NCBI GenBank assembly: GCA_016213775.1
Contig: JACQZR010000238.1
Span: 1-36,252, forward strand
DNA length: 36,252 bases
Origin: Acidobacteriota bacterium
GTDB lineage: Bacteria; Acidobacteriota; Terriglobia; Bryobacterales; Bryobacteraceae
Direction of reading: 5' to 3'
In this document: one piece after another, positions 3,428 through 27,620 of the stretch
How positions within the stretch are numbered: the first letter of the stretch is position 1
Layout of the letters: each line of letters begins with the position of its first letter
Notes under the pieces: model-generated
The model's database searches: none
What the model was told of the DNA's origin: nothing
What the model saw: the letters and a program-made list of their open reading frames with translations, nothing else
Program-made: the position numbers and the translations under genes

Positions 3428-3816
3428 TCATCGACACCTCCGCAATCATCGCCATTCTCGACGAGGAGCCCGAGTCTCCCGCCTTTCGAAAAGTCATGGA
3501 GAAGGCCGAGTCCCTCCGCATGTCCGTAGTCAGCTACGTGGAGGCCTATATCGTGTTGCGATCAGTGAAGGACCCAATTGTGCTTCACCGTCTGCAGGAT
3601 TTGATATCCGCATCCTTCATCGAGATCATGCCCGTCACGGCCGAGCAAGGGAGAATCGCCTGCGACGCCTATCGCGATTTCGGGCGCGGCAGCGGCAGCA
3701 AAGCCAAACTCAACTTCGGCGACTGCTTCTCCTACGCCCTCGCGAGGGAGACACGCGAACCGCTTCTCTTCAAAGGTAAAGACTTCCTCCACACGGACAT
3801 CAAGAGCGCCACGTGA
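3424..3816 (+). CDS. vapC: PIN-domain ribonuclease toxin, VapC family
   Basis: 130 residues, the usual VapC length. The acidic PIN-domain residues are all present: Asp4 in MIIDTSAI, Glu in SYVEAYIV, Asp in NFGDCFSYALA and Asp in FKGKDFLHTDI. It is therefore predicted to be an intact Mg-dependent RNase that cleaves tRNA or rRNA when VapB is lost. The gene overlaps vapB by 4 bp (ATGA) and also overlaps the GTG of the following hydrolase gene by 4 bp (GTGA at 3813). The TA pair is thus directly coupled to a metabolic operon. Confidence 0.92.
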   Translation: MIIDTSAIIAILDEEPESPAFRKVMEKAESLRMSVVSYVEAYIVLRSVKDPIVLHRLQDLISASFIEIMPVTAEQGRIACDAYRDFGRGSGSKAKLNFGDCFSYALARETREPLLFKGKDFLHTDIKSAT

Positions 3817-5597
3817 TTACCCGCCGCGCCGCACTTCCACTACTCTCCGTCCCCACACTGGCACGGGGGCAAGAGGAGAGTGGATCGCTCCTATGGAATT
3901 GGTTCATCCCTCAACTGGAAGCCGCCGATGCCCGTCGCATGCAGGCGTTGGCGCAAATCAGAACCCCATCCGGCATCGCTGCACTCCGCACGCGCGTGCG
4001 AGCCCAACTACTCGCCGCGATCGGCGCCTTCCCGCAACGCACTCCACTGAACGCGCGCATCACTGGCACGCTCCGCCGCGAAGCCTACTCAATAGACAAG
4101 GTCATCTTTGAGAGCCGTCCCGGTTTCGCCGTTACGGCCAACCTCTACCGTCCCAATCGCCTCACCAAACCGCTCCCCGCCGTCATCGAATCCTGCGGCC
4201 ACTACCCCGAAGGCAAAGCAGCCCCGGAATATCAAAAAGTGTGTGCCGGCCTGGCATCGCACGGCATCATCGCGATGGTCTTTGATCCTATCGGACAAGG
4301 GGAGCGCTACATGTATCGCCAACTCGGGCTGCGTGCGCAACCGGCAACCTACGAGCATGTTCTCGCCGGCCAGCCCGCATATCTCACCGGCCGCACCCTC
4401 ACCCACTACCGTGTTTGGGATGCCATCCGCGCGCTCGACTACCTACAGTCGCGTCCCGACGTGGATGGCACGCGTCTCGGCATGGTGGGTCACTCGGGCG
4501 GCGGCATGACCACACTGCTCACCGCACCCTTGGAATCACGCCTCCGCGCCGTCATGTCCACTTGCGCGGTCACCACCTTCCTCCACAAGACGAAGGCGCT
4601 CCTCACAGCCGACCCGGAACAAATCGTGCCCGGCGTCTACGCCAACGGGATCGACCATCCGGAACTCATCGCCGCCGCTCTCCCGGCTGCGTTCCTCATC
4701 GGCCTGACCACCGGGGATTACGTGCCGCAGGAAGGCACCCGCCGCACGCTCGCCGAGGTGCAGCACTTGTCCGCCAACATCAGTCTTGTGGAAACGCCCG
4801 GCCCCCACGCCATGAATCAAGGTCTGCGCGAAGCCTGCTATGCCTGGATGCTGAAACATCTCGCCGGCCGCGAAGCGAAGGTCGTGGAACCGCAACTCGC
4901 CGTGGAATCCCCCGCCGATCTTCAATGCACCACGGACGGCGCGGTGATGAACCTCCCGGGCGCGCAGGGCCTCTTCGAGCTAAACCGCGAACAGGCTCGC
5001 GCTGTCCACGCGAAGCGCTCCCGCGAAACTCCTCGCTCCGTAAGGACAGCCCCTCCCATTGACTTCCCCACACGGCGCACCGGTCTGGGCACCACGCACA
5101 TCATTGTAGTGAGCGCCAGCTTCCGCGCGGACTTCGCCCGTTCTCTCGTGACCCCTAAGTCCACGGTGCTCGAACTCGACATCCAGGGCTGGGAGCAGCA
5201 ACCCGGACGCAAACTCAACTGGGAGGAATTCTTTGCCTATCGTGCTTTCGAACTCGGCCGCCCGCTCATCGAACTTCGTACTCAAAGTCTCATCCACCAC
5301 GCCACGGCACACCAGGGCCGCGTTTTCGTGGTCGGCCTGGAGGAAGCAGGCATCATCGCTCTCCACGCCGCAGCCAACACGCCGCGCATCGCCGGCGTGA
5401 TCACCGTCAACACCCTCCGCTCCTATCTCGACGTTTTCGACAAACCCGCCTCCAAAACGCAAGTCAGCAGTTATGTTCCGGGCGCCCTCATCCGCTACGA
5501 CCTCCCCGATCTCATCGAACGCATTCGCCCACGGCCCGTGACGCAGCTTGAAACTCCCGACGCGGCGCGTATCCTAGAGGTATGCGCGCTCGCCTGA
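3813..5597 (+). CDS. Large alpha/beta hydrolase (acetylxylan-esterase-like) with extra C-terminal region
   Basis: 594 residues from a GTG that overlaps the vapC stop. The N-terminus (MITRRAALPLLSVPTLARGQ) is a Tat-like leader. The first half is a complete hydrolase: HYPEGKAAPEYQ and FDPIGQGER near the oxyanion region, nucleophile Ser228 in GHSGGG, and a candidate histidine in GPHAMNQ. The remaining roughly 230 residues look like a second, degenerate alpha/beta fold without a clear nucleophile elbow. The usual acetylxylan esterase is about 320-400 residues, so the tail is unusual. The substrate is not known; esters of plant polysaccharides are a reasonable inference. It overlaps the next gene by 16 bp. 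Confidence 0.82.
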   Translation: MITRRAALPLLSVPTLARGQEESGSLLWNWFIPQLEAADARRMQALAQIRTPSGIAALRTRVRAQLLAAIGAFPQRTPLNARITGTLRREAYSIDKVIFESRPGFAVTANLYRPNRLTKPLPAVIESCGHYPEGKAAPEYQKVCAGLASHGIIAMVFDPIGQGERYMYRQLGLRAQPATYEHVLAGQPAYLTGRTLTHYRVWDAIRALDYLQSRPDVDGTRLGMVGHSGGGMTTLLTAPLESRLRAVMSTCAVTTFLHKTKALLTADPEQIVPGVYANGIDHPELIAAALPAAFLIGLTTGDYVPQEGTRRTLAEVQHLSANISLVETPGPHAMNQGLREACYAWMLKHLAGREAKVVEPQLAVESPADLQCTTDGAVMNLPGAQGLFELNREQARAVHAKRSRETPRSVRTAPPIDFPTRRTGLGTTHIIVVSASFRADFARSLVTPKSTVLELDIQGWEQQPGRKLNWEEFFAYRAFELGRPLIELRTQSLIHHATAHQGRVFVVGLEEAGIIALHAAANTPRIAGVITVNTLRSYLDVFDKPASKTQVSSYVPGALIRYDLPDLIERIRPRPVTQLETPDAARILEVCALA

Positions 5598-8356
5598 AAC
5601 CGCTGCCCCTGTTGATTGCCGGAAGCCTCACCGCACTCACGATCTGGCTGATTCGTCCTACCGCGCCTCATTCGGTCCTCGCCGCCGACGCCGAGCGGGC
5701 CCGTTACCTGATCCAGTTCGGCGTGGACGGTAAAGAGAACGTCGATTGGTCCGGCTCTCTTACCGCGCCGCAGGCTAAACTCAGCGCCTGGCAGTTCGAT
5801 CCCGCCGCCGACTCCCTCACTGCCAACACATGGAAGGCCGCCACCAAGCGCGAAGTCTACTGGGACACACCCTACGAGAGAATCATGGGCCCCACCGCCA
5901 ATCGCGAAAAGGTTACGGCGAAAGGCCTGTGGGTGGAACTCGGCGCGCCCGTAGCCGAAATCCGCGTCACAACAAAACAAGGCGATTTTGTTTTTGAGCC
6001 CACCATGACGCCAGGCGACGCTCCACAGCGATTCCTCGACGGCCGCGTCGCCGTACAGGCCGTTCCCGCCGGGCATTCTCTTACCAAGGACGCCGCGGTG
6101 GAAGACTACCCCTCCATGATCGAAACACGCGACGGCACGCTCTGGATGGCCTATCAGCGCTACGAGAACGACCGCGATCAAATCGTCGTCCGCAAACTGG
6201 TGAAAGGCGCCTGGACCAACCCCGAGCCAGTCTCCGCTCCCTGTGATTGCTACAAGACCGCCCTCGCTCAGGACCGCCTCGGCCGCATCTGGGTCGTCTG
6301 GTCCGAACAACAAAACGGGAACTTCGATCTCTACGCGCGCGCGTTTGATGGCAAAGCGTGGTCCAAGTCCGAGCGCATCACCAACTCGCCCAACTCCGAC
6401 ATCAATCACGTGATGGCGAGCGATGCCGCGGGCAACATCTACCTCGCCTGGCAGAGTGCGCGCAACGGCAACTTCGATATCTATTTCCGTGTGCTGAGGG
6501 AAGGGAAGTGGGGTCCCGAAATTGCCGTCAGCACCGATCCCGCGAACGATTGGGAGCCCACCGTTGCGATCGCCCCAAACGGCGCTGTCGCGGTGCTGTG
6601 GGACACGTACGCCAACGGCAATTACGACATCGCAATGCGTACGTACTTTCGCGGCCAGTTCGGCCCACCGGTTCCGATTGTGACGAGTGAAGCCTTCGAG
6701 GCCCGCCCGGTTGCGAAGTTCGACGCGCAGTCGCGCCTGTGGATCGCCTGGGACGACGGCGATAGCGCGTGGGGTAAGGACTACGGTTACCAAATCGGCG
6801 ATCGCGGCCGCGGTCTCCTCCTTCGCCGGCAGTCCCGCGTCGCGGTTTGGGAAGGCGGACGCCTCCAGGCCCCGTTGTTCCCAGAAACCGCCCTCCCTGA
6901 GGATCTCCGCCAGGTGGCCCATCAACCCAATTTCGTCCTCGATGCCGCCGGCAATCCGTGGCTCTTCTTCCACGTGCGGGTCAACCTTCCCCGACAGCGC
7001 GGTGGCCAGGAAACCTACCGTGCCATGTGGCGCATCTACGCAACCACTCTTCGTGGCGACAAGTGGACCCCGGCTATGGAATTGGCCGAAGGCTATGGCC
7101 GCATCGACATGCCCGTCGCCGCAGCCGCTCGGAAGAACGGTGAAGTCGCGGTGGCATGGGCCTCTGATGGCCGCACGTGGCCCGCCGGTCACCCCGCCGA
7201 ACATGACCTGCACGTCGCGATGATCCCCAAGGCCGCTCCCACCATGCCCGCCATTCTCGCGCCGTATTTCGCCATGCGCGAACGCCGTCCTCCCATCCAT
7301 CAGCAGGAGGCCGCCGATGTCGCGCGCATGCGAAACTACCGCGCCAAAATCGACGGCAAGGAATGGCGCATTGTGCGCGGCGACATCCACCGTCACACCG
7401 ATCTCTCCTGGGACGGCAATCGTGATGGCTCCCTCGACGACAGCTACCGCTACGCCCTCGACGCCGTGGCCTTTGATTATCAGGGTGTGTGCGATCACCA
7501 GGCCGGCCAGTCGATCCCCTACAACTGGTGGCGCATTCAAAAGGCCGTCGATCTCTACACCATCGCCGGAAAATTCGTGCCCGTCTATTCTTACGAACGC
7601 AGTCTCCCCTGGCCCAACGGACATCGCAATGTCGTCTTCGCCGAACGCGGCCGTCCTCTTCTGGAAATCCCCGAAGCCGAGCGCAGAGGCCAGGAAGGCG
7701 CGGGCAAGCTCTACGCTTACCTGCGCCAGTTCTCCGGCGTCACCACCTCGCACACATCGGCTTCCGGCATGGGCACCGACTTCCGCGATAGAGACCCTGA
7801 AGTGGAACCCGTCGTCGAGATCTATCAAGGCTACCGCAGCAACTATGAGGCGACCGACGCTCCTCGGGCTCCCAGCCGCGGCGAGGTCACTCGCTACTCC
7901 CTCGGCTTCGTTTCCAGCGCCTGGGCCCGCGGGATCAAGATGGGCGTGCAGGCCAGCTCCGATCACGTGTCCACCCACATCTCCTACGCCAACTTCTGGG
8001 TCAGCGCCTTGGACCGCAAAGAGATCATCGCCGCGATGAAAGCCCGCAGATCCTTCGCGTCGACCGACAACATCATCGTTGATCTCCGCGCCGCCGGCCA
8101 CTTCATGGGCGAGGCATTCGCTGCCGCAACGCCGCCCAGCTTGCACGCCGTGGTCAATGGCACCGGCCCGCTCAAACAAGTCGACGTCATCCGCAGCAAC
8201 AAGGTCGTCTACACGGTTCCCGGCAGTGGCTCCGAGGCGAAGTTTACATTCACCGATCGCGAGAAGCCCGAAGGCGAAGTCTTCTATTACATCCGTGCCC
8301 TCCAGCAGGACGGGCAGTTGGCGTGGAGTTCGCCCATCTGGGTGAAGTACAACTGA
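5582..8356 (+). CDS. Beta-propeller plus PHP-type (DUF3604/CehA-McbA-like) metallohydrolase
   Basis: 924 residues. An N-terminal hydrophobic segment (about residues 7-25) is a signal anchor. Residues about 160-400 hold propeller-like repeats of the form W-x-x-W/Y...NGNFD-x-Y, seen three times (NGNFDLYAR, NGNFDIYFR, NGNYDIAMR). The C-terminal part is a PHP-like metal site: GDIHRHTD (His603, His605), then VCDHQ (Asp638, His639), with further His-rich loops (TTSHTS, SSDHVSTH). This matches DUF3604/CehA-McbA-type proteins, some of which hydrolyse carbamates or phosphoesters. The real substrate is unknown. The start overlaps the preceding gene by 16 bp and is preceded by AGAGG, so translation is coupled. 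Confidence 0.82.
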   Translation: MRARLKPLPLLIAGSLTALTIWLIRPTAPHSVLAADAERARYLIQFGVDGKENVDWSGSLTAPQAKLSAWQFDPAADSLTANTWKAATKREVYWDTPYERIMGPTANREKVTAKGLWVELGAPVAEIRVTTKQGDFVFEPTMTPGDAPQRFLDGRVAVQAVPAGHSLTKDAAVEDYPSMIETRDGTLWMAYQRYENDRDQIVVRKLVKGAWTNPEPVSAPCDCYKTALAQDRLGRIWVVWSEQQNGNFDLYARAFDGKAWSKSERITNSPNSDINHVMASDAAGNIYLAWQSARNGNFDIYFRVLREGKWGPEIAVSTDPANDWEPTVAIAPNGAVAVLWDTYANGNYDIAMRTYFRGQFGPPVPIVTSEAFEARPVAKFDAQSRLWIAWDDGDSAWGKDYGYQIGDRGRGLLLRRQSRVAVWEGGRLQAPLFPETALPEDLRQVAHQPNFVLDAAGNPWLFFHVRVNLPRQRGGQETYRAMWRIYATTLRGDKWTPAMELAEGYGRIDMPVAAAARKNGEVAVAWASDGRTWPAGHPAEHDLHVAMIPKAAPTMPAILAPYFAMRERRPPIHQQEAADVARMRNYRAKIDGKEWRIVRGDIHRHTDLSWDGNRDGSLDDSYRYALDAVAFDYQGVCDHQAGQSIPYNWWRIQKAVDLYTIAGKFVPVYSYERSLPWPNGHRNVVFAERGRPLLEIPEAERRGQEGAGKLYAYLRQFSGVTTSHTSASGMGTDFRDRDPEVEPVVEIYQGYRSNYEATDAPRAPSRGEVTRYSLGFVSSAWARGIKMGVQASSDHVSTHISYANFWVSALDRKEIIAAMKARRSFASTDNIIVDLRAAGHFMGEAFAAATPPSLHAVVNGTGPLKQVDVIRSNKVVYTVPGSGSEAKFTFTDREKPEGEVFYYIRALQQDGQLAWSSPIWVKYN

Positions 8357-8383: not shown

Positions 8384-9325
8384 ATGGTTACCCGCCGGAC
8401 TTCCGTCTCTGCGCTTGCGGGCGCGGCCGTTATGGCTATGCCTCCCGCCAAGGGTGCTCTCGATAAGATGGTGCTCTGCGCATTCTCCAAACACTTTCAA
8501 TGGACCAGCGTTAAGGAGTGCGCCGAACTCTGCGCCAGTTGGGGATATGAAGGAATCGACCTCACCCTTCGCCCTGGTGGCCATGTGCTGCCCGAACGCG
8601 TCGAGGAAGATTTGCCGAAGGCCTTTGAAGCCGTCAAGAAGGCCGGCATCACCATGCCGATGGTCACCAGCCACATTGTGGACGCCAAAACGCCGCACGC
8701 CGAAAATGTTCTCAAGACTCTCAACAAGCTCGGCATTCACTACTACCGCTGGGGCGGTTTCCGCTACACCGAAAACGCGCCCCTCCCCAGGCAGGTGGAC
8801 GAATTCAAGGCCCGCACCAAAGACCTCGCGGCGATGAACAAACAGTACAACGTCTGCGCCATGTATCACACGCATTCGGGCGTAACGCAGGTCGGCGCGT
8901 CCTTCTGGGATCTCTATATGATCCTCAAGGACTACGATCCTGAATCCGTCTCCGTCAACTACGACATCGGCCACGCCACCGTCGAAGGCGGCCTCGGCGG
9001 ATGGATTCATTCCAGCCGCCTGCTGCTGCCCCACACGCGCGGCATCGCCATCAAGGATTTCGCCTGGGGAAAGAACGCCCGGGGCGCGTGGGCGCCTAAC
9101 TGGTGCGCCATTGGCCAGGGCATGGTCAACTTCAAACAGTTCTTCACGATGGTGAAGGCTGCGGGCTTCCACGGTCCATTGCAACTCCACATGGAGTATC
9201 CCGAACTCGGCGGAGCGGACAAAGGCAACGCCACCTACTCCATCCCCAAGGAGCAGTTGCTCGCCATTTTCAAACGCGACGTCATTAAGACGAAAGAACT
9301 GTTGAAAGCAGCGGGACTGGCCTGA
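8384..9325 (+). CDS. Sugar phosphate isomerase/epimerase-type TIM barrel protein
   Basis: 313 residues with a Tat-like leader (MVTRRTSVSALAGAAVMA). The pattern WGYEGIDLTLRPGGHVLPERV, MVTSHIVD, NYDIGHATVEGG and LQLHMEYPELGG is typical of the xylose-isomerase-like/AP-endonuclease-2 TIM barrel, with acidic and histidine residues at strand ends for a divalent metal. These proteins interconvert keto and aldose sugars or epimerise polyols; here an exported version is predicted, which is common in acidobacteria and planctomycetes. CGATCTAATA lies just before the ATG and could be a -10 (see findings). The stop overlaps the next ATG by one base (TGATG). Confidence 0.82.
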   Translation: MVTRRTSVSALAGAAVMAMPPAKGALDKMVLCAFSKHFQWTSVKECAELCASWGYEGIDLTLRPGGHVLPERVEEDLPKAFEAVKKAGITMPMVTSHIVDAKTPHAENVLKTLNKLGIHYYRWGGFRYTENAPLPRQVDEFKARTKDLAAMNKQYNVCAMYHTHSGVTQVGASFWDLYMILKDYDPESVSVNYDIGHATVEGGLGGWIHSSRLLLPHTRGIAIKDFAWGKNARGAWAPNWCAIGQGMVNFKQFFTMVKAAGFHGPLQLHMEYPELGGADKGNATYSIPKEQLLAIFKRDVIKTKELLKAAGLA

Positions 9326-10068
9326 TGCGATACGCGATCCTGATTCTCGCCGCTGCCGCCGCGTCCGCGCAGCATAGCTCCACCACCATCACCAACCCCT
9401 ACAACACGGCGAAGGATCGCGTGGAAGGCGCGGCCACTTACCGTTCGCAATGCGGCGCATGCCATGGACCCGACGCCAAGGGCGGCTCCGGCGGCCCCGA
9501 CCTCTCCCGCGGCCAGTACAAGCACGCCGTCTCTGAAGAGGCCATGTTCAAGGTCATCACCAAGGGTGTTCCCGGCACATCCATGCCCGGCTACAGCTTC
9601 GATGGCAAGCTCGCCTGGCAGCTAGTGGCCTATCTACGCGGCCTCAATCAGGAGCAAGGCGGTGGTGTTGGCGATGCCGGGCGCGGGGCCAGTCTTTTCG
9701 CTTCCCTGCGTTGCGCCGGTTGCCATTCCGGCAAAGCGCCAAACCTTGCCGATGCCTCCCAGCGCATGACGCGAGCCGAACTCCGTCTCGCCCTGGTCGA
9801 TCCGAACGCCAGCGTCTCCGCTGAATATTGGCAATGGAAATGGAAACTCCGCGACGGCGCCACCGTCTCCGGCCGCCGGCTCAACGAAGATACGTACTCC
9901 ATTCAAGTGATGCTCGCCAACGGACGCCTGCAAACGCTGCTCAAGCACGACGTCGCCGCCAGCGAAGACGCGCGCAAATCCCCGATGCCTTCATTCGCGG
10001 GCAAAGTGCCCGATGGCGACATCGACAGCCTGGTCGCCTATCTGGTTTCCCTGCGGAGAGCCAACTAA
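9325..10068 (+). CDS. Dihaem cytochrome c, probable electron acceptor of the PQQ dehydrogenase
   Basis: 247 residues with a signal peptide (MRYAILILAAAAASAQ). Two haem-binding CxxCH motifs are present, CGACH at residues 43-47 and CAGCH at 130-134. Each is followed by a plausible axial methionine (TSMPGYSF and SPMPSFAG). The first domain is a standard class I cytochrome c. The segment between haem 2 and its methionine is long and strand-rich (EYWQWKWKLRDGATVSGRRLNE), as seen in cytochromes encoded beside PQQ dehydrogenases. It ends immediately before the ATG of the dehydrogenase, so it should take the two electrons from reduced PQQ in the periplasm. Confidence 0.9.
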   Translation: MRYAILILAAAAASAQHSSTTITNPYNTAKDRVEGAATYRSQCGACHGPDAKGGSGGPDLSRGQYKHAVSEEAMFKVITKGVPGTSMPGYSFDGKLAWQLVAYLRGLNQEQGGGVGDAGRGASLFASLRCAGCHSGKAPNLADASQRMTRAELRLALVDPNASVSAEYWQWKWKLRDGATVSGRRLNEDTYSIQVMLANGRLQTLLKHDVAASEDARKSPMPSFAGKVPDGDIDSLVAYLVSLRRAN

Positions 10069-11694
10069 ATGAAAGCCATTTTTCTCATCACCCTTTGTGC
10101 GGGCACGCTCGCCGCACAGACTGGAGCCGATTGGCCCACCTACCACGGCACCTCCATGAGCCAGCACCACTCCATGCTGGACCAGCTCACGCCCGCCAAC
10201 ATCGCCAACCTCGAATTGAAATGGGTCTGGCAGGCGCATTCGATGGAGAAGTTTGAAGCCACGCCTCTCATCGTCAACGGCGTGATGTACGTCACAGAAG
10301 CACCCAACAACGTCGTCGCGCTCGACCCGCAGACCGGCCGTGAATACTGGGTCTACGAGCACAAGCTCCCCGAAGTCACCTACAACTGCTGCGGCAAAGT
10401 GAACCGCGGTGTCGCCTTGGCCAACGGCATGGTCTTTGTCGCCACACTTGACATGAAGCTCGTCGCGCTCGATGCCGCCACAGGACAAAAGCGCTGGGAA
10501 GTCACTGTCGACGATTACAAGAAAGGATACGCCCTCACCAACGCGCCGCTCATCGTCAAGGACAAACTCATCATCGGAACCGCCGGGGGCGAACTCGGCA
10601 TTCAGGGCTACATCGCCGCCTACGATGTCGAGACCGGCAAGCCGCGCTGGCGCTTCAACACCATCCCGCAGCCCGGCGAGCCCGGCCACGACACCTGGGG
10701 CAAGGACGCCAAGGGGAACGAATCGTGGAAGCACGGCGGAGCTTCCATCTGGCTCACCGGCTCCTACGACTCGCAGTTGAACCTGACCTACTGGGGTACC
10801 GGTAATCCCGGCCCCGATTGGAACCCGTCGATGCGCCCTGGAGACAATCTCTATTCCGATAGCGTCGTTGCGCTGGACGCGGATACCGGCAAACTGAAGT
10901 GGCACTTTCAATTCACGCCCCACGACGAATGGGACTTCGATTCCGTCCAGACCCCGGTGCTGGTGGATGCCAACTGGAAAGGCGCTCCCCGCAAGCTGAT
11001 GCTCTGGGGCAACCGCAATGCCTTCTACTACGTATTGGACCGCGCCACAGGCGAATTCCTGCACGGCTCCGCTTTCGCCAAGCAGACATGGGCCCAGGGA
11101 CTCGATGCCAAGGGCCGCCCCATCAAAGCTCCCAGCCGCGGCCCGAGTGCGAAAGGCACACTCACATTCCCCGGCGTCCAAGGGAGCACCAATTGGTATT
11201 CTCCGTCCTATAATCCGAAAACCGGCTTATTCTATCTCAGCGTCTGGGACGATTACTCGGGAACTTACTACTCCTGGGACCAGACTTATGAGCAAGGGAA
11301 GTGGTTTGTCGGGGGCGCGGTCCAGGGTGAAGTGCCAGCCACGCGCCGGCTCCGCATCAACCGCCGCGATCCCAAGAACGGCTATGGCGCGGTGCGCGCC
11401 CTTCGCTATGAAACTGGCGAAAGGGTCTGGGAGTACCGCATGGGCGACGTCACCGAAGCAGGTATCCTCACCACCGCCTCTAACCTCCTGATCACCGGCA
11501 ACCGCGAGGGGCATTTTCTGGTCCTCGATGCCCGTGACGGAAAACTGCTGTGGCGCCGGTATCTTGGTGGGCAGACGGCAGCTTCGCCGGTAACGTACAT
11601 GGTCAACGGCAAGCAGTACATCTCGTTGGCGGTTGGTCACTCGCTGTTCACTTTTGGGTTGAAGGAAGGTACCCCTACCATACCTGCCCAATGA
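10069..11694 (+). CDS. PQQ-dependent alcohol dehydrogenase with the lanthanide-type DxD motif
   Basis: 541 residues with a short signal peptide (MKAIFLITLCAGTLAAQ) and an eight-bladed quinoprotein propeller (tryptophan-docking motifs such as ALDAATGQKRW and AYDVETGKPRW). Active-site features line up with methanol dehydrogenase: the vicinal Cys107-Cys108 pair (YNCCG), Glu175 in GGELG, Asn246 in GTGNPG and catalytic Asp289 in HDEWDFDS. An additional Asp291 sits two residues after the catalytic Asp; this is the known mark of lanthanide-dependent XoxF/ExaF-type enzymes, whereas calcium enzymes have Ala or Ser there. It probably oxidises a primary alcohol or polyol in the periplasm and passes electrons to the cytochrome encoded just upstream. 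No PQQ synthesis genes are in the window. Confidence 0.92.
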   Translation: MKAIFLITLCAGTLAAQTGADWPTYHGTSMSQHHSMLDQLTPANIANLELKWVWQAHSMEKFEATPLIVNGVMYVTEAPNNVVALDPQTGREYWVYEHKLPEVTYNCCGKVNRGVALANGMVFVATLDMKLVALDAATGQKRWEVTVDDYKKGYALTNAPLIVKDKLIIGTAGGELGIQGYIAAYDVETGKPRWRFNTIPQPGEPGHDTWGKDAKGNESWKHGGASIWLTGSYDSQLNLTYWGTGNPGPDWNPSMRPGDNLYSDSVVALDADTGKLKWHFQFTPHDEWDFDSVQTPVLVDANWKGAPRKLMLWGNRNAFYYVLDRATGEFLHGSAFAKQTWAQGLDAKGRPIKAPSRGPSAKGTLTFPGVQGSTNWYSPSYNPKTGLFYLSVWDDYSGTYYSWDQTYEQGKWFVGGAVQGEVPATRRLRINRRDPKNGYGAVRALRYETGERVWEYRMGDVTEAGILTTASNLLITGNREGHFLVLDARDGKLLWRRYLGGQTAASPVTYMVNGKQYISLAVGHSLFTFGLKEGTPTIPAQ

Positions 11695-12921: not shown

Positions 12922-13374
12922 CTACAACGGCTCCGGCGAGCGTACCCGGATGTTCACGAATTGATTCACGAATTGAGGATGAAGGGGATTGATCAGCCAG
13001 ATCGACTCCGACGGGACAAGGGCCGAGGGAAGTATCAGGACTGCGACCTTCCTCTCCGCGATGAAGGAATCTCCGATGGCCGCGAGGGCGGGACTTGCCG
13101 GAACCTGTCGCCAGTCTGTCGGAAGATCATGCGGTTTCAGTATCATTCGAGATACGCTGTCCGGAATATCGGCACCTGCCACGACCAGGTCCTTGGGCGG
13201 ATCGTCCGCATTAATGTGGACAAAGTACTCCAACATCGCCAGTGACAGATGTTCCGCTGCATAGGCGATGCGCGTGCCGGGACTGGACCAGCGTCCTCCG
13301 AACAAAAAGGAGCCTTCGCCGTCGAAGGAGTTCTTTGCGTAGCGCTTCCGAAGGATCCTGTAGACCCGCGTCAA
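12922..13374 (-). CDS. RES-domain toxin (NAD-degrading type)
   Basis: 150 residues. The motif GGRWSSPGTRIAYAAEHLSLAMLE is the hallmark of RES-domain toxins, containing the conserved Arg, Ser and Glu positions; VYRILRKRYAKNSFDGEGSF before it is the usual N-terminus. Characterised members of the RES-Xre family deplete NAD+ in the host cell. The length and all recognised blocks suggest an intact toxin. Its ATG overlaps the TGA of the antitoxin gene by 4 bp (13371-13374), the standard antitoxin-first arrangement. Confidence 0.9.
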   Translation of the reverse strand: MTRVYRILRKRYAKNSFDGEGSFLFGGRWSSPGTRIAYAAEHLSLAMLEYFVHINADDPPKDLVVAGADIPDSVSRMILKPHDLPTDWRQVPASPALAAIGDSFIAERKVAVLILPSALVPSESIWLINPLHPQFVNQFVNIRVRSPEPL

Positions 13375-13808
13375 CTCACGCCACCGTACGCAATCCTGCC
13401 CAGCGCGTTCTCGACCGCTCGTGCACCCGGTTCGGTGTCGATGAGATCCAGGGGGACATGGCCGCTCAACGCCCGGTTCGGCCGCTTGAGCCAGCGCGTC
13501 GCCGTTTCCTCATCTCCGATGTACTGTTTGGCAAGCGCGACGATGCGCGCTAGCCTGTACAATCGGTCGGATTCGTAGGGAGCCAGGCGGCCTGAGTGCC
13601 GCCTTCGCTGCAAGCTGCGAGGGGAAAGGTCGAGCGTCGCCGAGAGTTGCTTGAGCGTTAAACCAGACGAGTTCATAACGCTTCCGACAACCTTTTGGGG
13701 GAACCCCTCGCGTATCGCCGACTGGAGGTCGCTGGTGGTTCGCAGAGTACGGCCAAGCGCACTCTCGCCGCCCAACTCCGCGACGACAGCCTGGAGTTCG
13801 TTTGCCAT
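13371..13808 (-). CDS. Xre/MbcA/ParS-type antitoxin (DUF2384 C-terminus)
   Basis: 145 residues from ATG 13808; a GTG three codons earlier (13817) is an alternative. The middle part (SGLTLKQLSATLDLSPRSLQ) is an Xre-type helix-turn-helix. The C-terminal block (ESDRLYRLARIVALAKQYIG, then ATRWLKRPNRALSGHVPLDLIDTEPGARAVENALGRI) is the DUF2384 toxin-binding domain. It neutralises the RES toxin encoded immediately downstream and should repress the operon. ATG 13808 is preferred because a -10-like TATACT lies 10 nt upstream, which would leave almost no leader. Confidence 0.9.
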   Translation of the reverse strand: MANELQAVVAELGGESALGRTLRTTSDLQSAIREGFPQKVVGSVMNSSGLTLKQLSATLDLSPRSLQRRRHSGRLAPYESDRLYRLARIVALAKQYIGDEETATRWLKRPNRALSGHVPLDLIDTEPGARAVENALGRIAYGGVS

Positions 13809-13945: not shown

Positions 13946-14635
13946 TCACATCGTGCGCCTGTCACCCTTCTTCCTCACGAGCACAAGAAAGCCCAATCCG
14001 CCCCCAAGTAACCCCAGACTCGGCGGTTCCGGTGTCGACGCCGTCCCTACGGTGAACGCCTCCACCCGCGACACATTCACCGTCACGTAAGTATTACTGG
14101 TGGTTCCCAGTAGATTCGCTCCACCGGAGCCGTTGCCATAGCTAAAAGAGTACATCAGCGCCTGAGAGAGGCCTCCCGGAACATACAGATCGTGCCCACC
14201 GCCGAACGTCGGACCATAAGCAAGGTTATTGTAAGTCTGATACTGGCCCGTAGTGCCCGCGCTTGTGAGCAGTTCTGCCAGTTTCTGACCGGCAGTCAGG
14301 TTAAACAGAAACGCGGTCCGCATGGCATCGGTAGGCGCCAGGACATAGTTGTTCAGGCTGCCATCCCAACTGACCGGATTGTACCCGCCCACTAATCCCT
14401 GGGCAGTCTGCACCAGAATGAACGTTGCTCCCTTGTTATCCGCCGCGGCGTGAAAATTGGCCGCTCCATTCACGTCCGGCCCGGAACTGAATATGTTGGT
14501 GAGCGTCAGATCCCCTTGCCCCAGCCATGTGGCAAGCTGATTCGCGTCCGTTGCGTTCAAGAGCGTGCCGCCGTTCACGATCGTCGCGGCACGAAGTGGA
14601 AAGATGGCCAGCAAGGCCAACAGTAGCGTCTTCAT
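13946..14635 (-). CDS. Exported TLD-like protein with PEP-CTERM sorting signal
   Basis: 229 residues: signal peptide (MKTLLLALLAIFPLRAATI), a central region, and a C-terminal PEP-CTERM signal (TPEPPSLGLLGGGLGFLVLV followed by RKK). The central part has a TLD-domain look (LATWLGQGDLTLTNIFSS, FHAAADNKGATFILV, VGGYNPVSW). PEP-CTERM proteins are processed by exosortase and released or anchored at the surface, often alongside exopolysaccharide production; no exosortase gene is in the window. The biochemical role of the TLD-like part is not known. Confidence 0.85.
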   Translation of the reverse strand: MKTLLLALLAIFPLRAATIVNGGTLLNATDANQLATWLGQGDLTLTNIFSSGPDVNGAANFHAAADNKGATFILVQTAQGLVGGYNPVSWDGSLNNYVLAPTDAMRTAFLFNLTAGQKLAELLTSAGTTGQYQTYNNLAYGPTFGGGHDLYVPGGLSQALMYSFSYGNGSGGANLLGTTSNTYVTVNVSRVEAFTVGTASTPEPPSLGLLGGGLGFLVLVRKKGDRRTM

Positions 14636-14644
14636 GCCCCTATC

Positions 14645-14657
14645 AGCGGAATCCGCT
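14645..14657. promoter_or_regulatory. Small perfect palindrome in a divergent intergenic region
   Basis: AGCGGA-A-TCCGCT is a perfect inverted repeat with a 1-nt centre, 10 bp upstream of the PEP-CTERM gene on one side and about 74 bp upstream of the UroD-family gene on the other. It could be an operator for either gene. This is inference from position and symmetry only. Confidence 0.25.
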
Positions 14658-14730
14658 CACTCAAAGTGACACACGCACCATGCTACGCTTGAGCCGTGCA
14701 CGCCACCGGCGCAGCACCTTTAGAAACATC

Positions 14731-15789
14731 ATGCTACCGCATCAGTGGAGCGCCTTTAAACGCGCCGCCCGCCTGGAGAAACTCGACCGTATCCCCATGG
14801 CGCTCATCATCGACAGTCCCTGGATGCCCGGCTATCTGGGGCGCAAGCACCTCGATTACTACCTGGACCCGGAACTCTGGTTCCAATCCAATCTCCAGAT
14901 CATGCGCGAGTATGCGGATATCATCTTCGTGCCCTCGTGGTGGATGGAGTACGGAATGGCGGCGGAGCCATCCATACTCGGAGCGAAGATCAAGTTCTGG
15001 CCGGACAACACACCCAGCGAGTGCCACCGGTTGCACCGGCTGGAAGACATCGATCAGATTTCCGATTACGATGTGGAAGCGGACGGCTTCGCCGCTTTGA
15101 CGCTGCACCGCATCCGGATGCAGAAGCAGCGCATCCTCGACCATGGGTACATATTGCCGATGGTGACCGCCCGCGGGCCTTTGTGTACGGCTGGATTCGT
15201 CCGCGGCACCACCAACTTCATGATGGACCTGGTGGAGGACCCCGAAGGCGCGCACCGGTTAATCGACCTGTGCACCCGTGTCGTCATCGACTGGATGAAG
15301 GCGCAGCAGAAGGCGATGGGCGATACCGTCGAGGGATTCCTTCTTCTTGACGACATCGTCGGCTTCATCAGCAAGCGGCACTACATCGAGTTCGCCCACC
15401 CTTACCTGAAGCGGATCTGCGACGCCTTTCCGCAGGACTGGGTGAAGGTATACCACAACGATGCCAAGATCGAGGCGTGTCTGGATCACCTGCCCGACGC
15501 CGGTTTTCACGTCCTCAACTGGGGCAAGCAGCCGGACATTCGCGAAGTGAAGCGGCGCGTCGGACAACGGATGTGCCTGATGGGCAACGTCAACCCGCTC
15601 GAGATTGCAGTTCGAGGGACACCCGGCGAGGTCCGCGCGGCAACTCTCGACGTGCTCGAAGGATCGGGCGGGGAAGGCATCATCCTGTCGGTGGGCGGTG
15701 GCGTGAGTCCGGGTATGCCACGCGACAACATCCTCGCTATGCGCGCTGCGCTCGACGAGTTCCACGCAGGCCGGTTGGCTATTATATAG
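14731..15789 (+). CDS. Uroporphyrinogen-decarboxylase-family protein (methyltransferase-like)
   Basis: 352 residues from ATG 14731, where family similarity begins (LPHQWSAFKRAARLEKLDRI). A longer reading from ATG 14680 would add 17 basic residues with no resemblance. The protein has the URO-D-type TIM barrel: VEGFLLLDDIVGF, DWVKVYHNDAK, AGFHVLNWGKQPDI, CLMGNVNPLEI and EGIILSVGGGVSPGMP. In bacteria, stand-alone members of this kind (MtaA/CmuA-like) more often transfer methyl groups to corrinoid or coenzyme thiols than make haem. No corrinoid protein or haem gene is adjacent, so the substrate is open. Confidence 0.85.
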   Translation: MLPHQWSAFKRAARLEKLDRIPMALIIDSPWMPGYLGRKHLDYYLDPELWFQSNLQIMREYADIIFVPSWWMEYGMAAEPSILGAKIKFWPDNTPSECHRLHRLEDIDQISDYDVEADGFAALTLHRIRMQKQRILDHGYILPMVTARGPLCTAGFVRGTTNFMMDLVEDPEGAHRLIDLCTRVVIDWMKAQQKAMGDTVEGFLLLDDIVGFISKRHYIEFAHPYLKRICDAFPQDWVKVYHNDAKIEACLDHLPDAGFHVLNWGKQPDIREVKRRVGQRMCLMGNVNPLEIAVRGTPGEVRAATLDVLEGSGGEGIILSVGGGVSPGMPRDNILAMRAALDEFHAGRLAII

Positions 15790-19496: not shown

Positions 19497-20336
19497 TTAC
19501 CGGTCCGCCGCGGAGATCGTGTAGCGAAGCTTCGCCGCTTTGCCGGGCTCGATCACCGCACCGGTGCGGGCGGGCCATGACGCTCCGATGAAGCCGTAGA
19601 AACGCAGGCACCAGACGTTGGGCTCGCCGGGATTCGCCGGATCGGCGGTGACGCGCAGCGCGGCCACGCGGCCTTGATAGGATGCTTCTAGCTCGGCCCA
19701 GGCATGCGGCACCAGGTCTTCATCCTTCTTCAACTGGCCTTCGCTGGTGCGAAGAGTTGTGCCTTGGCGAGGAGCAAAGCGCACGCTCACCCCACCGTAG
19801 CCCTTACCGCTTTCAGGCGCGCCTACGATGCGCACCGGCTTGGCCGTTGCCTCCAACATCAGCGTCACCACGAACTCACGTGATTTGCCGTTGGCCGCGC
19901 GGGGCTCGATGGTTACGAACTCCTTGACGATCTTCGTATCGCCGGCATACCAGCCGTTTTCCACCACCAGGCGCCTGGCGCTCTTCTCCACGAAGCGCTC
20001 ATGCCTGGTGGTGATGCCCTTCATCATCCACGAGTCGAGCCGCGGTCCTCCATCGACGAACACCTGCGGCCACGACCAGAACACGCCGCGGTGATGATAG
20101 TGGTCTTTCGGGAAGTCGTCGGTCACGGCAACGCCTGCGGGAGTGTAGACCGGATGAATGTAGCAGCAGCGGCGCCGGTCTTCGGGGACACCCGCCGGTA
20201 GTTGCGGATCGTAGTTATAAACGAGCGCGGGTTTGCCGGCATCCAACAACTGCAGCCGTCCGCCATCGAGTTCCTTCCAACTCAACTGGGCCCATAACGG
20301 GCTAACCGCGACGAGCGCGCCGAATAGCTTCTTCAT
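19497..20336 (-). CDS. DUF6807 (PmoA-like) exported protein
   Basis: 279 residues with a signal peptide (MKKLFGALVAVSPLWAQ). The signature DHYHHRGVFWSW, preceded by YIHPVYTPAG, identifies the DUF6807 family often mislabelled methane oxygenase PmoA. There is no relation to copper methane monooxygenase. The fold is predicted to be mostly beta, and the His cluster may bind a metal or sugar. In acidobacteria and planctomycetes these genes sit beside Gfo/Idh/MocA dehydrogenases, as here, which suggests a role in sugar or uronic-acid breakdown. It overlaps the end of the enolase-superfamily gene by 35 bp. Confidence 0.85.
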   Translation of the reverse strand: MKKLFGALVAVSPLWAQLSWKELDGGRLQLLDAGKPALVYNYDPQLPAGVPEDRRRCCYIHPVYTPAGVAVTDDFPKDHYHHRGVFWSWPQVFVDGGPRLDSWMMKGITTRHERFVEKSARRLVVENGWYAGDTKIVKEFVTIEPRAANGKSREFVVTLMLEATAKPVRIVGAPESGKGYGGVSVRFAPRQGTTLRTSEGQLKKDEDLVPHAWAELEASYQGRVAALRVTADPANPGEPNVWCLRFYGFIGASWPARTGAVIEPGKAAKLRYTISAADR

Positions 20337-21459
20337 TTACTTCCACTCCTAGTCCGATTCCCGTGGGTACACGTAGCGCGCCGCCTTCCAGTACAAACGG
20401 CTTTTTCAGGTAACTGGCGGTGAGGAATTGCAGTCCGTTCAGCGCCGCCGGATACTTCAACCGGGCCGCGCCGTAAATGGCGAGCGATGCAGCCAGCGAC
20501 ACATCCGGATCAGTGAGGCCGCTGCCCAACACCATCAGTCCTTCGCGCTCGCAGAACTGCAATTGCTTGATCGCATCATAGAGGCCCGCGGTGCGCGCCG
20601 GTTTGAACGCCACGCCGTCGAGCAGGCCAAGCTTGAAGAACTCCTCAAGTTCGACATGCGACACGAGGCCTTCGTCCATGAGGATGGGCAAGGCCTTCTG
20701 TTTGCGCAACGCCGCGAAGCCGGAGAGGCGGTTGGAGGCCACGGGCTGTTCGAGGACGTTCACTCCGGCGTCAGCCAGTTTGGGCGCAACGGTCAACGCA
20801 GTGCCGGTGTCGTAGCCGCCGTTGGCATCGGCCCAGAGGAAACAGTTGGGGGCATACTTGCGAACGCGCCGCGCGAGATCGAGATCGGCCTTGGGATCCG
20901 GCGCGACCTTGATGTTGTAGTGCCGGTAGCCGCGGCGCTTCCCTTCTTCCATTAACGGTTCCAGATCGTCCATCGTCGCGGGGTTCAGGGTCCAGCTCAG
21001 GTCGATTTTGTCCACTGGCTTGCGCTTCCAGAACTGGTTCATCGACTGTCTGGCGAGCTTCGCGGCGATGTCATGCAGGGCGAGATCGATGCCAGCCTTA
21101 GTGATGGGCATGCCCGTTGAAAACGACGGCGAGATAGCCTTTCGCATTTCCAGGTGCGCGCCGGCAATGTCGAGCGGATCGCGTCCGATGAGGCGCGGTG
21201 CGAGGTATCGTCGCAACGTATCCTCAGCCGATTCGGGCGTCTCGTAACTCCACGTTGGAACGGGCACGCTTTGGCCCCAGCCAACGGTGCCGTCCTCGAG
21301 GGTGATCTTCACCATCACCGTCGGCCGCTCCGGCTTGGGGAAGAATTTGAAGTGCCCGGTGACGGGATAGCTCACCGGCAACACATCCACAGTGCGGATG
21401 CGCGGCGCCGGCGCGGCGGCCAGGCTGAGCGGCATGGCTAGCAGGTCTCGTCTTCGCAT
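20302..21459 (-). CDS. Enolase-superfamily enzyme (mandelate racemase/muconate lactonizing type)
   Basis: 385 residues with a Tat-like leader (MRRRDLLAMPLSLAAA). The acid ligands are spaced as in the family: Asp211 (WADANGGY), Glu237 (LEQPV) and Asp262 (MDEGL). The catalytic bases are Lys184 (NIKVA) and Lys286 (FKPART). The usual KxK pair on strand 2 is NxK here; the first Lys is replaced by Asn182. Known members dehydrate sugar acids, racemise or epimerise. With the neighbouring oxidoreductase and DUF6807 protein, sugar-acid metabolism is the likeliest setting. It is unusual that this enzyme class carries an export leader. The ATG overlaps the oxidoreductase TGA by 1 bp. Confidence 0.87.
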   Translation of the reverse strand: MRRRDLLAMPLSLAAAPAPRIRTVDVLPVSYPVTGHFKFFPKPERPTVMVKITLEDGTVGWGQSVPVPTWSYETPESAEDTLRRYLAPRLIGRDPLDIAGAHLEMRKAISPSFSTGMPITKAGIDLALHDIAAKLARQSMNQFWKRKPVDKIDLSWTLNPATMDDLEPLMEEGKRRGYRHYNIKVAPDPKADLDLARRVRKYAPNCFLWADANGGYDTGTALTVAPKLADAGVNVLEQPVASNRLSGFAALRKQKALPILMDEGLVSHVELEEFFKLGLLDGVAFKPARTAGLYDAIKQLQFCEREGLMVLGSGLTDPDVSLAASLAIYGAARLKYPAALNGLQFLTASYLKKPFVLEGGALRVPTGIGLGVEVNEEAIRRARRG

Positions 21460-22658
21460 CAGGTGAATTCCAGCTTCTCACGATTGAAGCCCACGCGGCG
21501 GCCGGACCTGTAGGCTTCGGCGCTCATGCATCCGGCAACCGCATGAGAGAATCCGGCCTGAATATCGGCTCGCGGTGTTTGTCTGGATTTGATGCAGCGC
21601 AGCCAGTTGGCCATGTGCGATTCGATACCGGGCTTGGCTTCGATAGCGACTTCCTTCTCCAGGCGGTCGGGGCGGCGGCTGCCCTTGGGGATCAGCTTCA
21701 TCAAGTCGGCATCGAGGACGCCGCGCGTTCCGTACCACTCATTGCGCGCGCCGGAGGCGTTGGTAAGCGACATGGCAAAGCTGATCATGCACTCTTTGTA
21801 GGCCACCAGGGTCTGGAACACATCCTGTGTTGCGCGCCCGTCCTTCCAGAGGAAGACTCCGCCGTGGGCCACGGCGCTGGTGGGGTACGGATCATCGAGG
21901 AACCAGGCTGCAAGGTCGATGAAGTGCGACATCCATAAACCAGGAATACCGTTCGATGTTTCGGGGAAAAGCTGCCACTCACGGAACAGGCGCACGTCCG
22001 GGACCTTTGTAAACTCGCCCATGGTGAACTGGCCCATGGTGAAGGCGGACCAGTCGATGTCGGCTGGTTGGATCATGTGATGATCGCGACGCCAGCGCGG
22101 CTCCTGGAAGTGGACCTGCAAGTCGGCGCGCGTCAGTTGGCCGATGGCGCCGGACCGGATCATCTCGGCGCAAGTGATCATCTTCGCTTCGCTGCGGCGC
22201 TGGGTGCCGATCTGGACCACCTGCTTGGACCGTTTCACGGCGAGGTAGGCGGCACGTGCGTCCTGGAGCTTGACGCCCATGGGCTTCTCGCAGTAGGCGT
22301 CCTTGGCGGCTTCCATGGCCGCCCGCAGCATGATGGAGTGGGTGAAGTCCGGCGCGGAAATGATGACCGCGTCGACGTCCTTGCGCGCGAGCAACTCCTC
22401 GTAGCGGGTGCAGGTGAATGGGGCTTTTCCATACACTTGGGTGATTCTGCGCGTGGCGTCCTCGCGGGCCTGCCGCAGCACGTCGCACACGGCTACGATC
22501 TCGACGCCCGGTTCTTTGGCGGCCTGGATCTCGCGAAACAGATAGCTGCCGCGTCCGCCAAAGCCGATGATGCCGAGACGGATGCGATCACTGGGTGCGG
22601 TTTGCGCCAACAAGGCGGGCGCGGAAGCGGCGGCGGACACAAATTCCCTACGTTGCAT
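21459..22658 (-). CDS. Gfo/Idh/MocA-family oxidoreductase, exported
   Basis: 399 residues with a Tat-like leader (MQRREFVSAAASAPALLAQ). The Rossmann fold is shown by RLGIIGFGGRGSYL and EIVAVCDV; the CEKPMG motif carries the catalytic lysine. The C-terminal half has the family's sheet domain (SNGIPGLWMSHFIDLAAWFL). Members use NAD(P) to oxidise or reduce sugars and inositols, sometimes using a tightly held cofactor for glycoside cleavage by oxidation and elimination. Export by Tat with bound cofactor would suit the latter. It forms an operon with the enolase-superfamily and DUF6807 genes. Confidence 0.9.
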   Translation of the reverse strand: MQRREFVSAAASAPALLAQTAPSDRIRLGIIGFGGRGSYLFREIQAAKEPGVEIVAVCDVLRQAREDATRRITQVYGKAPFTCTRYEELLARKDVDAVIISAPDFTHSIMLRAAMEAAKDAYCEKPMGVKLQDARAAYLAVKRSKQVVQIGTQRRSEAKMITCAEMIRSGAIGQLTRADLQVHFQEPRWRRDHHMIQPADIDWSAFTMGQFTMGEFTKVPDVRLFREWQLFPETSNGIPGLWMSHFIDLAAWFLDDPYPTSAVAHGGVFLWKDGRATQDVFQTLVAYKECMISFAMSLTNASGARNEWYGTRGVLDADLMKLIPKGSRRPDRLEKEVAIEAKPGIESHMANWLRCIKSRQTPRADIQAGFSHAVAGCMSAEAYRSGRRVGFNREKLEFT

Positions 22659-22697
22659 GCTGGGCGGGGAGCAACTTAGTGGCCATTCGACCGGGGA

Positions 22698-23426
22698 TCA
22701 CTTGAGATCGAAGGTGACGGTGGACTCGGCGCCGAAGCGCTTGTAGGTCTCGTAGTCGATGGCCATCTTCATGCGCAGCGCCCCGCTGCGGAATTGGAGG
22801 ACATCGTCGGCCGAGGTCTTTTCCGGGAACCAGAATTTGCCGTCCACCAGCTTGCGCACGGTGACGAAACGGGGGAACAGATTCTCCTTCTTGCCGAGCA
22901 TCTGCGGGACGGCGCGGCCTTCCATGCGGATGACAGCGAGGTCCTGTTGATGGACCCAGATTAGCCCTTCAAAGAGGCGCTGGCCGTCAAGGATCTGGCG
23001 TGGGCTCACCTGCAATAGCCAGCAGCGGAAGCCGGCGGTGGTGTCCTCGCCTTTGTACTTCGTCTGGTACATGGGCAACGAGTCGCGGGTGAACAGGAAC
23101 GGCTGTACCTCGCGGATATCGCGGAAGTCCTCTTCGGTGAGGACGAGGCGGTCGAGCGAGCGGAAGGGCTTGCCCACCAGTTGTTCGAAGCGCTTGCCTT
23201 CAGGGGAGAAGATGACGTCGCGGGCTTCGCGATATTCGCCACGCTTGCGGCCACCGGGTTCGAGCTCTTCGATGTGGACCTTCTGGCGATAGGCGTAGTT
23301 GGCGCGCTGCTCTTCAGTGACGGTCTCTCGTTCGAGGACGCGGCGCAAGAGGCCGGCGGGTGGCTCATCGGCCCAGGCCGACAGCGAGCCACAGAGCAAG
23401 GCAACGATGCGCATCGCACGCGTCAT
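22698..23426 (-). CDS. Exported protein with outer-membrane-lipoprotein-sorting-like fold
   Basis: 242 residues with a signal peptide (ALLCGSLSAWADEPP, after a basic start). I recognise the pattern loosely: strand-rich blocks such as YAYRQKVHIEELEPGGRKRG, REARDVIFSPEGKRFEQLVG, CWLLQVSPR, LFEGLIWVHQQDLAVIRMEG and MKMAIDYETYKRFGAES resemble LolA/LppX-fold proteins found often in acidobacteria. No catalytic motif is visible. It is separated by 39 bp from the oxidoreductase gene and by 36 bp from the FGE-domain gene. A function in lipid or lipoprotein handling is only a guess. Confidence 0.7.
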   Translation of the reverse strand: MTRAMRIVALLCGSLSAWADEPPAGLLRRVLERETVTEEQRANYAYRQKVHIEELEPGGRKRGEYREARDVIFSPEGKRFEQLVGKPFRSLDRLVLTEEDFRDIREVQPFLFTRDSLPMYQTKYKGEDTTAGFRCWLLQVSPRQILDGQRLFEGLIWVHQQDLAVIRMEGRAVPQMLGKKENLFPRFVTVRKLVDGKFWFPEKTSADDVLQFRSGALRMKMAIDYETYKRFGAESTVTFDLK

Positions 23427-23462
23427 GATTCCCTCAACAGGATACCAGCGCTCAGGGTGGCG

Positions 23463-24260: not shown

Positions 24261-24273
24261 AGACGGGGTGAGG

Positions 24274-25671: not shown

Positions 25672-25675
25672 GGCG

Positions 25676-27517: not shown

Positions 27518-27549
27518 CCGAGTCCCTCCCAGGGTTTGTGCTGATTCAG

Positions 27550-27555
27550 AGTATA
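27550..27555 (-). promoter_or_regulatory. Candidate -10 box (TATACT) of the DUF1549/DUF1501 operon
   Basis: TATACT on the minus strand lies 32 nt before ATG 27517, followed by the GGGAGGG ribosome-binding site. This is a conventional leader, unlike the very short leaders proposed elsewhere in the window. No convincing -35 is seen. Confidence 0.4.
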
Positions 27556-27620
27556 TATGAGATTTTTGACGTTTGCTGGAGGTGCAAGGGCTTGGGGCCG
27601 GTGTAACTTTATGTTGTGAC

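Follow-up and report, generated by a model that had tools for sequence, protein, structure and literature searches.

The gene at positions 10069-11694 of the analysed window (36,252 nucleotides from a Bryobacteraceae member of the Acidobacteriota) codes for a protein that, judging from its sequence, is a real and well-conserved PQQ-dependent alcohol dehydrogenase (PQQ-ADH) of the lanthanide type, unexceptional within the large acidobacterial clade to which it belongs. The explanation that accounts best for the data as a whole, and which is probably correct, is that of an exported PQQ-ADH with a lanthanide-type metal site, a dihaem cytochrome as electron outlet and a PQQ cofactor obtained from other organisms. 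The dehydrogenase would bind a light lanthanide through E175, N246, D289 and D291, with calcium as a poorer substitute, while PQQ is presumably stacked between W228 and a C107-C108 disulfide, D289 being taken here as the catalytic base. Oxidation of the alcohol would give the aldehyde, and the dihaem cytochrome of the adjoining upstream gene would carry off the electrons. Since the searches gave no PQQ synthesis genes, the cofactor would be supplied by other organisms, and it is this supply that poses the stronger question.

The Dehydrogenase and Its Metal Site

The 10069-11694 product reaches 525 bits with the TIGR03075 model (PQQ-dependent dehydrogenase, methanol/ethanol family; cut-off 480.05) and is therefore a member of this family. 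Its score with TIGR04528 (acido-empty-quinoprotein group A) is 510 bits, under the curated cut-off of 650, which ruled out membership of that group. The AlphaFold model, for which 20 sequences were used as input, has a mean pLDDT of 84.5 (good confidence), and its top match in a Foldseek search of the PDB is PedH (6zcv; TM 0.85, 36% identity); the top-scoring sequence match among solved structures is 1kb0, a type II quinohaemoprotein ADH. The PQQ/metal pocket of PQQ-ADHs is formed by what we take to be a Glu, a Cys-Cys pair, an Arg, a further Glu, a Trp, an Asn, the catalytic Asp and a further Arg, and all these positions are filled in the dehydrogenase (E63, C107-C108, R113, E175, W228, N246, D289 and R316) when it is aligned with the reference rows L142 (an annotated XoxF5) and L144 (an ExaF/PedH-like protein). 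The residues on which the initial annotation had based its proposal of a lanthanide-type enzyme (D289 and D291 in the HDEWDFDS motif, E175, N246 and the Cys pair) were all confirmed in the translation (Table 1).

Table 1. Dehydrogenase gene, its putative metal-site residues and the genes upstream (coordinates of the window)
Feature	Coordinates	Strand	Basis or remarks
Acetyl-xylan-esterase-like hydrolase; start at 3813 or later, overlaps the next start	3813..5597	+	Not conserved beside relatives
Protein with weak BNR-like and CehA/McbA (PHP, DUF3604) metallohydrolase-like matches	5582..8356	+	Not conserved beside relatives
Xylose-isomerase-like TIM barrel, Tat-like RR N-terminus	8384..9325	+	Not conserved beside relatives
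Dihaem c-type cytochrome, CGACH at 43 and CAGCH at 130; followed immediately by the dehydrogenase ATG	9325..10068	+	Presumed electron acceptor
PQQ-dependent alcohol dehydrogenase of 541 aa; N-terminus hydrophobic, signal-like	10069..11694	+	TIGR03075, AlphaFold, Foldseek
C107-C108, vicinal cysteine pair	10387..10392	+	Sequence
E175, putative metal ligand, aligned with PedH E199	10591..10593	+	Alignment
N246, putative metal ligand, aligned with PedH N281	10804..10806	+	Alignment
HDEWDFDS motif, residues 285-292	10921..10944	+	Catalytic-type D289 (10933-10935), extra lanthanide-type D291 (10939-10941)

In a HMMER alignment to 6zcv, counted by hand, E175, N246, D289 and D291 correspond to PedH residues 199, 281, 323 and 325, which are the Pr3+ ligands of 6ZCW according to the available portion of PMC11845868, so that an additional Asp at the metal position appears to be present by alignment to the PedH ligands. 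When solved XoxF, PedH and MxaF enzymes are aligned, as the initial annotation had proposed, D291 falls on PedH ligand 325. The residue two positions after the catalytic Asp is Asp in XoxF (6oc5, 6dam) and in PedH, Ala in the MxaF-type enzymes (4tqo, 1g72, 2ad6), Thr in the quinohaemoprotein ADHs (1kb0, 1kv9, 1yiq) and Glu in the sorbose/DON dehydrogenase group (4mh1, 22vi, 9m2c, 4cvb, 7wmd). Two further positions, a Gly before the Glu ligand and a Thr at Asn+3, are given as secondary XoxF residues in the accessible text of PMC11845868. The first counts for the lanthanide reading, since G174 precedes E175 as in XoxF, where MxaF has Ala; the second counts against it, since Asn+3 is P249, where XoxF has Thr and MxaF Pro, although PedH also has Pro. 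The Asn-to-Asp spacing of 43 residues had been taken as a match to XoxF, but two XoxF references have 42 and a quinohaemoprotein ADH has 45, and the spacing was discarded as a XoxF mark because it is not diagnostic.

Conservation of the Site and Nature of the Metal

Conservation was followed in 79 acidobacterial rows, 78 of them distinct (14 from the genome of origin, 13 from a contig scan, 29 from a class scan and 23 from genomes with pqqC). W228, N246, D289, D291 and R316 are invariant in all 78 distinct rows of the MAFFT alignment, a set in which 66 of the 79 rows come from similarity searches, best matches first, and the 13 contig-scan rows (L029-L041) are biased, the motif itself having been one search pattern; this invariance makes the motif more than chance. 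Position 175 is occupied by Glu in 60 of the distinct rows, by Asp in 17 and by Gly in one, and 48 rows have the Cys pair in register, 45 of them with E175 and three with D175. How many Cys and Glu residues are counted depends on the MAFFT alignment (in L140, for example, the CC is displaced by one column). Several departures within the close set of 38 rows count against the main reading: E63 differs in three rows, the near relative L115 included, two rows lack the Cys pair or have it displaced, and one has Asp in place of E175.

The D-x-D motif had to be rejected as a peculiarity of the 10069-11694 product, because all 18 paralogues examined in the genome of origin carry the Asp at +2 (14 of the methanol/ethanol type and four Gcd-like). 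The search of this genome pointed to 35 places, a number that includes second pieces of single frames; loci were taken for 20 of them, from which L019, aligned only partly, and L020, the second piece of L013, were set aside. Escherichia coli Gcd also carries the motif, in the form WDMD, and in an ocean survey most or all proteins of 14 out of 17 PQQ-dehydrogenase families have it, as stated in the portion of PMC11996626 at hand. The initial annotation had regarded the extra Asp as the mark of rare-earth-dependent enzymes, a view that stands in so far as the residue aligns here with a PedH/XoxF ligand, and that falls short in so far as it is common across the superfamily and present in Gcd. Since D-x-D is inherited by the whole acidobacterial set and shared so widely, lanthanide use by the dehydrogenase is made likely, not proven, by the motif.

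The wide distribution of the Asp, fixed even in the four Gcd-like paralogues, would also be expected of a PQQ-ADH that uses calcium in the cell, or that is promiscuous for its metal, the second Asp being inherited and not enforcing lanthanide use. The membrane glucose dehydrogenase m-GDH, the type to which E. coli Gcd belongs, carries the motif and yet is able to form complexes with Ca, Mg, Zn and Sr (PMC11996626, in the text available), and when rare earths are absent PedH, too, appears to be capable of coordinating Ca (PMC11845868, in the sections accessible). Nevertheless, the Asp is a metal ligand in PedH and XoxF, all four ligands of the protein described here align with those of PedH, and the aligned Ca-type enzymes lack this Asp, with Ala in the MxaF type and Thr in the quinohaemoprotein ADHs, so that calcium use is an unlikely reading, albeit the one that survives best among the alternatives.

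The Cytochrome Partner

Of 27 loci, among them four paralogue loci of the genome of origin, 20 have a homologue of the dihaem cytochrome immediately upstream of the dehydrogenase. In the remaining seven, CxxCH is found inside the dehydrogenase frame in L173 (which carries L004) and L147, and there is no CxxCH in the other five (L161, which carries L115, and L031-L034). Haem-c motifs accompany 13 of the 14 methanol/ethanol-type paralogues of the genome of origin, nine with a CxxCH pair within 1.4 kb upstream and four with one or two motifs in frame, these being raw counts without a chance control, obtained from open frames read from stop to stop. Among the Gcd-like paralogues CxxCH was detected for L017 only (one of four). 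The dihaem partner proposed in the initial annotation is thus borne out by the gene order, and this linkage supports electron delivery to a c-type cytochrome, which here would be the dihaem protein encoded next to the dehydrogenase.

The only methanol/ethanol-type paralogue without CxxCH in frame or in the 1.4 kb upstream, L009, belongs to the same 38-row part of the tree as the window protein and has no Cys pair.

PQQ Supply

On a point that the initial annotation had not raised, the genome of origin (10.96 Mb, 98.48% complete) was searched for pqqB, pqqC and pqqE, only the best candidates of each genome being scored. There was no match to pqqC in this genome and none over the cut-off to pqqE (best 73 bits versus 381) or pqqB (best 40 bits versus 245). 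Full-length PqqU was not found in it either, the E. coli PqqU query giving partial, weak matches (best 53.9 bits). These absences count against the main reading. The pqqC model had no match in the 14 control genomes of this search, but exceeded its cut-off in 24 of 151 class genomes and in four of 81 genomes of the family; all four also have TIGR03075 proteins over the cut-off, as do 55 of the 81 family genomes in all (61 have a match at E<=1e-120). pqqB adjoins pqqC in G168, G177 and G178, which therefore look like real pqq loci, and G155 has only pieces of pqqB, below the cut-off, beside pqqC. The detection of pqqC in class and family, with pqqB alongside, indicates that the searches work within the family, and this, together with the completeness of the assembly, argues against the pqq genes having been missed because of an incomplete sequence.

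Window-type relatives (E<=1e-100) occur in 84 of the 151 class genomes and show no association with pqqC (15 of 24 genomes with pqqC and 69 of 127 without it; Fisher p 0.51), with three carriers that have strong but split pqqC matches under the cut-off (G037, G044 and G058) counted as lacking it. Near-full-length PqqU matches (E<=1e-50) were obtained in nine of 199 genomes of the phylum and in none of the class, in a sample that held few genomes of the family; the available part of PMC12124388 places acidobacterial PqqU in Vicinamibacteria only and suggests that the other Acidobacteria make PQQ themselves or obtain it by diffusion. The pqqC counts disfavour own synthesis for most of the family, so diffusion or another importer remains, and the dehydrogenase is likely a lanthanide-type enzyme loaded with PQQ that would be scavenged.

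The same lack of pqqB, pqqC and pqqE over their cut-offs, and the same absence of association with pqqC, would be explained if the protein were an 'empty quinoprotein', that is, a propeller that has lost its PQQ binding, or that takes a different cofactor, in organisms without PQQ synthesis; the sister family TIGR04528 does give the window protein 510 bits. This is improbable, because that score is under the TIGR04528 cut-off whereas the TIGR03075 cut-off is exceeded, haem-c partners accompany these enzymes, and the pocket is intact, Cys pair included, and matches that of relatives from genomes with pqqC. Thus, the window-type proteins L182 and L191 (G177) and L120 (G064) share E63, the Cys pair, R113, E175, W228, N246, D289, D291 and R316 with the window protein, which argues for a PQQ pocket in non-producers too; L120 differs at N375 (Ser), and L200, also from G177, has Asp at position 175, which counts against the main reading.

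Members of the TIGR04528 group belong to the same acidobacterial set. Two paralogues of the genome of origin, L012 (810 bits) and L014 (693 bits), are over its cut-off and yet keep the Asn, the D-x-D, the Arg and the Trp; a CxxCH pair also lies upstream of each, so that they may be redox-active and not empty. The window protein, unlike both of them, keeps the Cys pair and E63.

Phylogenetic Placement and Comparison with Known Systems

In a quick maximum-likelihood tree of 78 rows (LG+G4, with SH-aLRT as the sole support measure), in which references are few and some branches long, the dehydrogenase pairs with L113, from genome G097 of the same family (70% identity, SH-aLRT 100), within a six-row set (SH-aLRT 97) that also holds L115 and L029/L030/L114; the proteins of L029 and L114 (G117, of the window's own family) are identical. 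A larger set of 57 rows (SH-aLRT 99) encloses the dehydrogenase and is made up of acidobacterial proteins and one Sinorhizobium fredii plasmid protein. Outside it lie the XoxF rows, grouped on their own at 100%, the ExaF/PedH-like plasmid protein L144 (so labelled from its pedF neighbour and its WDYDG motif), a quinohaemoprotein ADH and the Gcd rows. The XoxF references were the annotated XoxF5 (L142), the unannotated Sinorhizobium meliloti protein L143 (whose XoxF label is given here) and methanotroph relatives, the tree covering XoxF5 out of the XoxF1-5 types. The quinoprotein ADH tree suggested in the initial annotation thus puts the protein inside the acidobacterial set and outside the XoxF group formed by these references, the ExaF/PedH type being represented in it by L144 alone.

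The S. fredii protein (L147, plasmid psfSMH12a), a dehydrogenase of 44% identity with CxxCH in the same frame, lies inside the acidobacterial set, which suggests transfer between phyla.

PedH from Pseudomonas putida KT2440 (6ZCV, 6ZCW), a lanthanide-dependent ADH, shares with the window protein the four metal ligands, the Cys pair and the Pro at Asn+3. The two systems differ in that no PQQ synthesis genes were found in this genome and in that the neighbouring cytochrome has two haem motifs and reaches only 25 bits with the PedF model (cut-off 122), PedF being a c550 cytochrome in the part of PMC12997753 available. The XoxF methanol dehydrogenases (6OC5, 6DAM, 4MAE) have in common with it the D-x-D motif, the Glu and Asn ligands, the Gly before Glu and the Cys pair (residues from 6OC5 and 6DAM), but they have Thr at Asn+3 instead of Pro, and the cytochrome next to the window protein scores 27 bits with the MoxG/cytochrome cL model (cut-off 148). 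That the enzyme is itself a XoxF-type methanol dehydrogenase is very improbable despite the XoxF-like ligands and vicinal Cys pair, and XoxF membership was rejected on the references used, since the acidobacterial set stands apart from the 100% XoxF group and identity to two XoxF references is 34-35%. Four paralogues of the genome of origin have fused haem motifs, as the type II quinohaemoprotein ADHs do (1KB0, 1KV9, 1YIQ), although the latter have Thr in place of the extra Asp and the haem motifs of the four paralogues precede the dehydrogenase domain.

Neither a characterised protein for this acidobacterial clade nor a description of it was found in a literature search that missed most subscription papers; PQQ-ADHs were reportedly classified by Keltjens et al. 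in 2014, and the clade may already carry a published type number. The same search gave no paper naming the TIGR04528 (acido-empty-quinoprotein) family and none on acidobacterial PQQ-dependent paralogues with cytochrome c. In the accessible parts of papers on lanthanide enzymes of Acidobacteria, XoxF is treated (PMC10875860, PMC6784897, PMC9258066), and some Acidobacteria of marine sets have many putative lanthanide sorbose dehydrogenases, according to the part of PMC11996626 available.

Neighbouring Genes and Substrate

The genes for the esterase-like, PHP-like and isomerase-like proteins are closely packed with those for the cytochrome and the dehydrogenase, and the rest of this operon had suggested, in the initial annotation, a sugar-derived or aromatic-side-chain alcohol as substrate. 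However, homologues of the beta-lactamase-like, hydrolase, PHP and isomerase-like genes were found at E<1e-8 in none of the 27 loci (stretches of about 4.5-18 kb), and in the closest relative, L159, the upstream gene differs. These neighbours therefore say little on the substrate of the enzyme in general, and the reading of the substrate from the operon context was given up, a pathway specific to this window being possible. Judging from the tree and the resemblance to PedH, the enzyme probably acts on a multi-carbon alcohol and not on methanol.

Other features were observed in the window. A type II RES/Xre toxin-antitoxin pair is located at 12922-13808 (- strand), with the RES toxin at 12922-13374 and the Xre/ParS-type antitoxin at 13371-13808, both over their NCBIfam cut-offs. 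A protein with the URO-D fold is encoded at 14527-15789 (+ strand), nearest to the MtaA/CmuA-type methyltransferases and well under their cut-offs. Genes for DUF1501, PSCyt2/PSD1, sulfatase-modifying-like, GFO/IDH/MocA oxidoreductase, enolase-like and DUF6807 proteins lie on one strand at 19497-27763 (- strand), perhaps as a sugar catabolic cluster.

Implications

A wider proposal, tentative and rather doubtful, is that a broad radiation of lanthanide-type quinoproteins, most of them with a haem-c partner of their own, is maintained in a family that mostly does not make PQQ (the known importer being absent in this genome), that the rare earth and PQQ are both scavenged through undescribed uptake, and that the 'empty quinoproteins' are redox-active. 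The characterised lanthanide enzymes in the accessible parts of the papers cited above are of the XoxF and ExaF/PedH types, and the existence of a large clade in the Acidobacteria with the same metal site would extend the rare-earth-dependent oxidation of carbon in soil beyond methanol. The presence of many intact quinoproteins against the missing PQQ synthesis raises the testable question of whether these enzymes are loaded with the PQQ of neighbouring organisms, and by which route it enters.
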